Assembly (NCBI RefSeq): GCF_010119205.1
Contig: NZ_WRXM01000001.1
Span: forward strand, 310,001 to 374,000
Direction of reading: 5' to 3'
DNA length: 64,000 nt
Origin: Haloarcula limicola
GTDB taxonomy: Archaea > Halobacteriota > Halobacteria > Halobacteriales > Haloarculaceae
Under the pieces are notes generated by a model. The model was not told where the DNA came from and did not search any database. It saw nothing but the letters and a program-made list of their open reading frames with translations. Within the stretch, counting starts at the first letter, position 1; the number at the start of each line of letters is the position of its first letter. Below, in pieces: positions 35,465 to 37,400 of the stretch. The translations under genes were made by a program, and so were the position numbers.

Positions 35465-35507
35465 TACCCACTGGGTAACTAAGCGTCGCCCGGGCCTCTC
35501 AGAGGCC
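35465..35507 (+). promoter_or_regulatory. two dyads in the hsp20 promoter
   Basis: TACCCA-C-TGGGTA (35465-35477) lies beside the TATA-like AACTAAG, and GGCCTCT-C-AGAGGCC (35493-35507) ends one base before the ATG at 35509. Both are perfect and centred on a single base. Their placement either side of the expected transcription start is what a repressor of a heat-shock gene would need. Confidence 0.5.
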
Positions 35508-35508
35508 G

Positions 35509-35949
35509 ATGACTCGACAGTCACCGCTCGACAACATGGAGACGTGGCTCGACCAGATGAGCAGGCAGTTCGAGGAAGCCGCCCAGCGGTGGGGGACCGG
35601 ATTAGAGACGTGGTCGACCGAGATGCCGCTCCCCCGGATCGACCTCGTCGACGCGGACGACGAGTTCGTCGTCACCGCCGACCTGCCCGGCTTCGAGAAA
35701 GACGACGTCGACGTGTACATCACCGACCAGACGCTCAGTATCGACGCCGAACGCAGCGAAGAGGTAGACGAGTCCGAGGCGAACTACGTTCGACGCGAAC
35801 GCTCTCAGAAGTCGGTCTCCCGTCGGCTCCGCCTTCCGAGCGAGGTGGACGACCAGGACGTCTCCGCTTCGATGACCAACGGCGTGCTGACGGTCCACGT
35901 CGGGAAAGCCGAACCCGTCTCCGAGGGCCACCGCATCGACATCGACTGA
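35509..35949 (+). CDS. small heat-shock protein, Hsp20 family
   Basis: 146 residues with an alpha-crystallin domain: PRIDLVDADDEFVVTADLPGF, KDDVDVYITDQTLSIDAE and the C-terminal strand NGVLTVHVGKA. The N-terminus is helical and charged, and the protein ends in EGHRIDID. It is an ATP-independent holdase that binds unfolding proteins. The start is set by ATG 35509, just after the second promoter dyad. Confidence 0.9.
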   Translation: MTRQSPLDNMETWLDQMSRQFEEAAQRWGTGLETWSTEMPLPRIDLVDADDEFVVTADLPGFEKDDVDVYITDQTLSIDAERSEEVDESEANYVRRERSQKSVSRRLRLPSEVDDQDVSASMTNGVLTVHVGKAEPVSEGHRIDID

Positions 35950-36001
35950 CGGACCCTCGGCCGTCGAGCGGTCTCTGCGGTCCCCGTCCGAGACACCTTC
36001 C

Positions 36002-36008
36002 ATTTTAT
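36002..36008 (+). promoter_or_regulatory. TATA box of the cysE leader
   Basis: ATTTTAT lies 26-32 bases before the ATG at 36034, the usual distance for a transcript that begins at or next to a start codon. A second AT-rich word, GAATATC (about 36022-36028), is too close to be the TATA box for that ATG. Confidence 0.5.
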
Positions 36009-36033
36009 GCCGCTCCGGCTACGAATATCGGGT

Positions 36034-36114
36034 ATGTCCGCCGGGTGTTCGTCCCGCGACCGAACCGTCCGTGCGACCGCACAGCGCGCCCTCACGATCT
36101 GCTGTCGCTGTTGA
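36034..36114 (+). CDS. Cys-rich leader peptide upstream of cysE
   Basis: A 26-codon open frame from ATG 36034 to TGA 36112. It begins MSAGCSSRDR and ends ALTICCRC, so four of 26 residues are Cys and three of the last four codons before the stop are Cys. It lies 52 bases before cysE, whose product makes the precursor of cysteine, and the TATA box at 36002 would make it leaderless. This is the form of a leader peptide that senses charged tRNA-Cys. It is an inference from position and composition; expression is not shown. Confidence 0.55.
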   Translation: MSAGCSSRDRTVRATAQRALTICCRC

Positions 36115-36166
36115 GGCCTGTTCTCCGCGTCGCACCTGCTTTCGACCACCCGATACCGTATCCACG

Positions 36167-36745
36167 ATGTTCGACATACCCACGATACTCGACACGCTCC
36201 ACGAGGACGTTCGGACGGCACAGGCGAAAGACCCCGCCGCGACCAGCGCCGCGGAGGTCGTCCTCACGTATCCCGGCCTGCACGCCGTCTGGCTGTACCG
36301 CCTCGCCCACGCGCTGTGGGCCGCAGACCACCGCTTCGCCGCCCGGCTACTCTCGCACCTGGCGCGCTTTCTCACCGGCGTCGAGATCCACCCCGGCGCG
36401 GACGTCGGTGATCGGCTGTTCATCGACCACGGGATGGGTACTGTCGTCGGCGAAACAGCCGACATCGGCGACGACGTACTCATGTACCACGGCGTCACGC
36501 TCGGCGGCGCGTCGATGCGCAGAGAGAAGCGCCACCCGACGCTCGAAGACGGCGTCACCGTCGGCGCGGCCGCGACGCTCGTCGGCCCGATCACTATCGG
36601 CGAGAACGCGACGGTCGGCGCGGGAGCCGTCGTCGTCGACGACGTCCCGTCCGAGACGACCGTCATCGGGAACCCGGCGAAACCCGTCGACGAGGCCGAA
36701 CACGAGCGGGACGGGACGCCCGACCCCGCGATCGTCGACGGCTGA
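36167..36745 (+). CDS. cysE: serine O-acetyltransferase
   Basis: 192 residues, the short EpsC-like form. The N-terminal helical part (YPGLHAVWLYRLAHALW) leads into a hexapeptide left-handed beta helix: GVEIHPGADVGDRLFIDHGMGTVVGETA (read in parts), with the catalytic His in FIDHGMG and MYHGVTLGG, ending GNPAKPVDE. It acetylates serine to O-acetylserine, the first step to cysteine. The cysteine synthase gene is not in the window. The upstream 217-base gap holds the leader frame at 36034. The next gene on the right is in a foreign-looking patch. Confidence 0.92.
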   Translation: MFDIPTILDTLHEDVRTAQAKDPAATSAAEVVLTYPGLHAVWLYRLAHALWAADHRFAARLLSHLARFLTGVEIHPGADVGDRLFIDHGMGTVVGETADIGDDVLMYHGVTLGGASMRREKRHPTLEDGVTVGAAATLVGPITIGENATVGAGAVVVDDVPSETTVIGNPAKPVDEAEHERDGTPDPAIVDG

Positions 36746-36791
36746 CCGCCCGACCGCCCCCGGCGTTCGGGCGGCGACGGACGACGGGGAC

Positions 36792-37400
36792 CTACTCTGA
36801 CTCGTAATCGGCCCAGATGTACTTCGTGGCCGCCGAACGGTGTGGACGCCAATCCTCTGCTATCTCACGCATCTCCTCACGAGTCATCTCTTCTCCGTCG
36901 CCGTACAATTCCTGAATACCGTTCCGTACTGCAAGGTCGCCCAACGGGAGGACGTCGGGTCGCTCCATTACGAATAGCAGGTACATTCGAGCAGTCCAAT
37001 CACCGATGCCCTTGATTTCCGTGAGGCGTTCGATGATCTCCTCGTTTGAGTGGTCTGACAGCCCCTCACGGGAGTAGTCTCGTTCCTGGAAAGCCTCCGC
37101 TGCGTTCCGCATATACTCGACCTTCATCCTCGACAGTCCTGCGTCTCGGAGTTTTTCCTCATCGGCATCCAAGATACTCTCGGGTGTTACTTCCTCGTCA
37201 AGCAACTCGAATACCCGTTCTTTCACCGCTGCTGCACTTGCAGTCGAGAGTTGTTGATTGATTATCGAAATACAGAGTCGTTCAAACTCAGTCCAGTTGG
37301 GCTCGGCATACGGGTTGTGCTCTTCCAACAGTTCAGCCATTACAGGATCTTCTTTTAGTACCGATTTGGCCTCATCAACCATTCTTCGATGAAGGTTCAT
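36792..37400 (-). CDS. alkA: DNA-3-methyladenine glycosylase II-like (HhH-GPD)
   Basis: 202 residues. The HhH-GPD fold shows LCISIINQQLSTASAAAVKERVFELL, the hairpin LTEIKGIGDWTARMYLLFVM and the catalytic Asp in VLPLGDLAVRNGI; the C-terminus is DWRPHRSAATKYIWADYESE. It removes alkylated bases. It lacks the N-terminal beta domain of E. coli AlkA. Base composition is clearly lower in GC than the neighbours (codons such as AAA, TCT, CGA are common), so it was probably acquired. ATG 37398-37400 is used; ATG 37380-37382 is equally possible and would avoid overlap with the divergent frame at 37389. Confidence 0.88.
   Translation of the reverse strand: MNLHRRMVDEAKSVLKEDPVMAELLEEHNPYAEPNWTEFERLCISIINQQLSTASAAAVKERVFELLDEEVTPESILDADEEKLRDAGLSRMKVEYMRNAAEAFQERDYSREGLSDHSNEEIIERLTEIKGIGDWTARMYLLFVMERPDVLPLGDLAVRNGIQELYGDGEEMTREEMREIAEDWRPHRSAATKYIWADYESE

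Follow-up and report, generated by a model that had tools for sequence, protein, structure and literature searches.

A cysteine-rich, putatively leaderless frame upstream of cysE in haloarchaea as a candidate leader-peptide attenuator

Ribosomes that read codons for the end product of a pathway and thereby control amino-acid genes are a textbook bacterial mechanism. In mycobacteria, polycysteine leaderless small open reading frames (sORFs) were reportedly found by Canestrari and co-workers in 2020 upstream of cysteine-metabolism genes, at several loci per genome, and a ribosome stalled on such a frame is said to open the downstream start. In Archaea, T tracts and aCPSF1/FttA serve to terminate transcription, and a hairpin is not strictly needed. 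Short frames before genes have also been described in a haloarchaeon, namely 16 upstream frames in long 5'-UTRs of Haloferax volcanii, which were identified from transcription start sites and encode peptides of low isoelectric point; the main text of that paper names neither cysE nor cysteine (PMC4983044). The Cys-rich frame studied here resembles these as a short frame before a gene, and eight cysE loci read in the family labeled f4 contained no Cys frame. A search of the open-access literature, with subscription papers mostly outside its scope, returned no archaeal leader-peptide attenuator.

We analyzed the cysE locus in a 64-kb stretch of DNA from Haloarcula limicola (the window, meaning this whole stretch), where a reading made from the sequence alone had pointed to a Cys-rich frame in front of the gene. 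The features of the locus are as follows.

36003..36008, + strand: TATA box TTTTAT, its first base 31 nt from the sORF ATG
36034..36114, + strand: predicted leaderless sORF of 26 codons, MSAGCSSRDRTVRATAQRALTICCRC followed by TGA, called from sequence and conserved in Haloarculaceae
36100..36111, + strand: putative regulatory codons TGC TGT CGC TGT (Cys Cys Arg Cys), called from sequence and in-frame conservation
36115..36127, + strand: GGCCTGTTCTCCG, a pyrimidine-rich, A-free tract directly 3' of the sORF stop, candidate weak termination or pause signal
36115..36166, + strand: spacer of 52 nt from the sORF stop to cysE
36167..36745, + strand: cysE, serine O-acetyltransferase, with TIGR01172 and NF041874 matches

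The TATA box, the 26-codon frame, its four Cys codons, and the 52-nt gap to cysE described by the sequence-only reading could all be read back from the sequence. The frame runs from its ATG (36034-36036) to a TGA (36112-36114), carries Cys codons at 36046-36048, 36100-36105, and 36109-36111, and ends in Ile-Cys-Cys-Arg-Cys-stop. A program-made list of open reading frames offers an alternative in-frame ATG at 36007, but since this falls within the TATA box, the 26-codon start at 36034 is the sensible choice. The downstream protein scored 229 bits against TIGR01172 (cut-off 210.65, E 2.6e-68) and 230.6 bits against NF041874 EpsC (cut-off 150). An Hsp20-family protein gene lies upstream of cysE on the same strand and an HhH-GPD glycosylase gene downstream on the opposite strand, and with these neighbors the sORF and cysE seem to form a separate transcription unit. 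Among named relatives, Haloarcula amylovorans is nearest at this locus (93% CysE identity), and Rfam gave nothing above any gathering score in 35500-37000.

We searched 146 Haloarculaceae genomes and 391 class-level genomes for cysE and located it in 132 and 292 of them, respectively. Upstream regions were collected for 169 cysE loci, a dozen of which are second copies that came from another collection, and then for 20 more (189 altogether). With the criterion of an ATG frame that ends with at least two Cys among its last six codons, which defines the architecture we call type A, 70 distinct loci had a frame of 23-30 codons located 45-104 nt before cysE, all of them in Haloarculaceae except one (L234). 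The first Cys of the run stands at codon 23.0 +- 1.8. The TATA hexamer of these loci starts 27-35 nt upstream of the sORF ATG, a range that includes the 31 nt of the window and agrees with the earlier suggestion that the ATG lies at the distance expected of a leaderless mRNA. We also picked the ATG by the TATA box only, so that selection was not on the outcome. Of 105 Haloarculaceae cysE loci, 77 had such an ATG. One or more Cys stood among the last six codons in 75 of the 77 frames, and two or more in 66, counts that come from related loci and are not independent events. The background is low: the window has 184 ATG frames with a length of 15-45 codons, only 2 of which carry two or more Cys among the last six codons, and the sORF before cysE is the one of the two with three Cys in its last six codons. 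When TGY clusters were scored with no length condition, they lay in the ATG frame at 69 of 78 loci and in either off-frame at none of the 78. The Cys codons among the last six of the 70 sORFs are biased toward TGT, with 151 of 194 (78%) against 84 of 175 in the ORFs of the window, as would fit regulatory codons. The sequence-only reading had made its proposal depend on conservation of the Cys codons upstream of cysE in related genomes, and at 66/77 against a background of 2/184 they are indeed conserved. Comparative sequence thus supports its view of the Cys-rich frame as a probable regulatory leader of cysE in haloarchaea. Among 68 cysE loci outside haloarchaea, none was preceded by a Cys-run frame.

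The element persists as the sequence around it diverges, and some Haloarculaceae retain a single Cys. Eleven loci (L048, L049, L050, L153, L164, L170, L180, L181, L183, L190, and L215) carry degenerate or variant type A frames, with a single terminal Cys or with a few extra codons after a Cys run; possibly these are intermediates between types or decaying copies. The frame has been lost in Halorhabdus (L072), and L151, L152, L160, L161, L163, L165, and L205 (genus label g9) are likewise without it. At several g9 loci a TATA-like GATTTAAG or GGTTTAA still stands well 5' of cysE, leaving a leader that has no sORF. Many haloarchaeal genomes also contain, alongside the short CysE gene, a second, distant CysE-like gene (for example G016:C1:1022687) with about 42-46% identity and an open frame near 295 codons.

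A second architecture, type B, occurs in two other haloarchaeal families, f3 and f7 (f2, f3, f4, f7, f8, and f9 are numeric family labels), at L249-L271, L275, and L336-L355. The last-six-codons criterion misses it because the Cys run is not terminal. The run in these frames is CC, CCC, CRC, or a lone C. It begins at codon 22 or 23 in each of the 18 frames that were scored first; two f7 frames carry a further Cys at codon 16. Past the run, the frames go on for some 20-40 codons. With the ATG picked by the TATA box, codon 22 was Cys in 16 of 24 f3 frames and in 4 of 5 f7 frames; at other codons Cys occurred in 0-1 of the 24 f3 frames, except at codon 9 (7/24) and codons 23-26. The extra Cys at codon 9, 13 codons ahead of the main run, was found in 11 of 26 f3 type B frames, for instance L249, L343, L345, L350, and L352. 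The spacer before the run, about 21 codons, is fixed in length and drifting in sequence; its roughly 60 nt are near twice a ribosome footprint, and the relevance of this is uncertain. Apart from L234 (f8), no frame preceded cysE in the f2, f4, f8, and f9 loci read, and none was present upstream of cysE in two Haladaptatus plasmid copies. In a quick CysE tree types A and B cluster but need 16 changes, which indicates that losses or switches of type have occurred.

The stop codon of type B frames lies at 0, +1, +4, +8, or +20 relative to the cysE ATG. In all nine f7 loci it is at +8, and there the leader-frame stop arises from cysE codon 2, which is CTT or TTT; the usual codon 2 of type A is TTC or CTC. 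Overlapping prokaryotic gene pairs favor spacings of -1, -4, and -8 nt, and in both H. volcanii and E. coli translational coupling wanes as the distance reaches 30-40 nt (PMC12548453). The overlap of the type B stop with the cysE start thus gives a coupling geometry that is absent from type A and so from the window: an overlap or a distance within 30-40 nt was confined to the type B frames of f3 and f7, and the type A gaps of 45-104 nt, like the 52 nt of the window, exceed the coupling range. The sequence-only reading had considered the 52-nt gap sufficient for coupling, which is unlikely given that coupling fades by 30-40 nt (PMC12548453). As the f3 and f7 frames end at coupling distances, the output of type B is probably on translation, although coupling by itself predicts that cysE goes down when cysteine is scarce, the opposite of the sign expected below.

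The TGT-rich block of Cys codons might instead be a DNA or RNA motif, for example an operator, or a site bound by a protein, set a fixed distance from the transcription start. Two observations would suit that idea: GGTGTTGTCG is well conserved in f3, and the distance to the 5' end is nearly fixed. Against it, the Cys clusters are in frame with the TATA-picked ATG and almost never off-frame. Moreover, within codons 22-25 position 2 changes slowest (0.253 in f3, 0.021 in f7) and position 3 fastest, stop positions are specific in both types, and the CRC, CCC, CC, and CCRC variants have Cys codons alone in common. We therefore regard the motif explanation as very improbable. A functional Cys-rich small protein, for example a metal-binding one, would likewise account for the 2-5 Cys near the C-terminus of most type A frames. 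However, the sORF body differs at 0.22, 0.25, and 0.23 of codon positions 1, 2, and 3 (cysE, 0.18, 0.12, and 0.31); this even drift, unlike that of cysE, marks the body as a spacer rather than a functional peptide, with the Cys codons being what is kept. Only the Cys and flanking Arg are conserved, and lengths and C-termini differ between types A and B, so that a functional small protein is scarcely credible.

Directly after the type A stop we found a pyrimidine tract with T-runs, present only there. In the type A clade, positions 0 to +18 past the stop are nearly A-free, and T-runs of at least 3 follow the stop in 33% of 45 representatives versus 0-4% in four comparison stretches; the tract of the window is T-poor, its longest T-run being TT. 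The last 25 nt of the type A spacer are G-poor, and opening the cysE start costs 5.6 kcal/mol in type A, whereas type B and the frameless families require 13-14. In H. volcanii, T stretches are what signals transcription termination between genes (PMC7237163), and in Methanococcus tracts of this kind are bound by aCPSF1 (PMC8716108). A type A tract followed by an open cysE start, together with the terminating T stretches of H. volcanii, leads us to propose that type A acts on transcription. A search of type A for terminators and antiterminators gave the pyrimidine tract with its T-runs and no consensus hairpins. Five loci of genus label g15 (L154, which is Natronomonas sp. CBA1123, L156, L158, L167, and L168) have another hairpin, 15-40 nt past the stop, in which the changes look compensatory (GGCCGTCGCTCCCAGTGACGGCC; L168, GTTGCTACCAGTAAC). 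Readthrough of the type A stop, or a frameshift, into cysE was considered and rejected: the frame past the stop is not conserved and the gap modulo 3 varies.

As for RNA folding, leader minimum-energy z-scores were at background level and RNAalifold gave no consensus hairpin for type B. Pairing of the 5' end with the Cys region was more favorable than in shuffled sequences in both types (z -0.55 +- 0.17 in A, n=47; -1.49 +- 0.39 in B, n=18), promoter controls gave z ~0, and some clades have perfect helices of 8-11 bp between the two segments, such as GCGACAGCAC/GTGCTGTCGC in L179. We take this as a hint of pairing within the leader, modestly supported and without a fixed register. The sequence-only reading had also seen room in the gap for an RNA switch; one form of it, pairing between the Cys codons and the cysE start, found no general support, being no better than in shuffled or swapped controls. 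This result also speaks against translational attenuation throughout, in which a stall would open the cysE start by altering ribosome traffic or the fold of the RNA, as proposed for the mycobacterial frames, the pyrimidine tract being a single-stranded linker. The type B stops at 0, +1, +4, +8, and +20 of cysE, seen beside the favored -1, -4, and -8 spacings (PMC12548453), and the stop made by CTT or TTT in f7 speak for it, and in L204 and L210 the Cys codons and stop can pair with bases ahead of the cysE ATG. The type A start, however, is already open, and its gap of 45-104 nt is longer than the coupling range, so we consider translational attenuation in both types rather unlikely.

We lean, by a little, toward the reading in which the sORF would be a leaderless, cis-acting leader-peptide attenuator that senses Cys-tRNA, with transcription as the proposed output in type A and probably translation in type B. 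Judging from the TATA spacing, transcription would start at or beside the sORF ATG and a ribosome would load on the bare 5' end. On the layout shown by sequence conservation, this ribosome would pass a free spacer of about 22 codons before reaching 2-4 Cys codons, on which it would stall when Cys-tRNA is scarce. In type A, including the window, the step proposed to be regulated is transcription past the pyrimidine tract. A stalled ribosome would shield the nascent RNA and break the hairpin of the sORF 5' end with the Cys codons, so that RNA polymerase reads into cysE, and a ribosome that finishes and leaves would expose the tract to termination. From the logic of the pathway we assume that cysE would go up when cysteine is low. 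Since a ribosome that has reached the stop codon covers the Cys codons as well, stalling and normal termination would differ mainly in dwell time.

This candidate attenuator can be set beside the bacterial systems. Like the mycobacterial polycysteine sORFs, it is a short frame, leaderless as judged by TATA spacing, with a Cys run conserved among relatives, and it lies directly 5' of a cysteine-metabolism gene, here cysE with its TIGR01172 match above the cut-off. Unlike them, it appears at cysE only and not at several loci: in a scan with a 39-nt leader model, a weak sequence model, the best match in its own genome was the sORF itself (E 0.003), no further convincing Cys-run frame was found in this genome or in the 20 genomes scanned, and none of 12 PALP-family genes had a Cys-run frame before it. 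Also unlike the mycobacterial frames, the statistically supported pairing in the haloarchaeal leader involves its own 5' end rather than the downstream start, and two architectures exist, one with a tract and an open start and the other with a start-codon overlap. The best reading, by analogy, is that the haloarchaeal frame would work like the mycobacterial polycysteine frames, without necessarily being one of them. The bacterial trp and ilv attenuators (M. tuberculosis ilvB1, PMC13236596) share with it a short frame containing end-product codons and, in type A, a T-containing tract that follows before the gene. In contrast to these attenuators, the haloarchaeal leader is putatively leaderless, and no conserved terminator/antiterminator hairpin pair was found in it.

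Taken as a whole, we give even chances to amino-acid sensing by a leader peptide in Archaea, with a Cys frame that would control cysE in at least three haloarchaeal families through a sensor at an almost constant place near codon 22, counted from the mRNA 5' end, and two exchangeable outputs, transcription in type A and overlap with the cysE start in type B. If this is true, archaeal transcription and translation would be close enough in time for ribosome-read control, and the combination of a leaderless frame, a Cys run, and a cysteine gene would have arisen in both actinobacteria and haloarchaea. Types A and B in related families would then be a natural experiment in which one sensor is wired to two outputs, and the haloarchaeal cysE leader would allow a clear and cheap test of amino-acid attenuation in Archaea.
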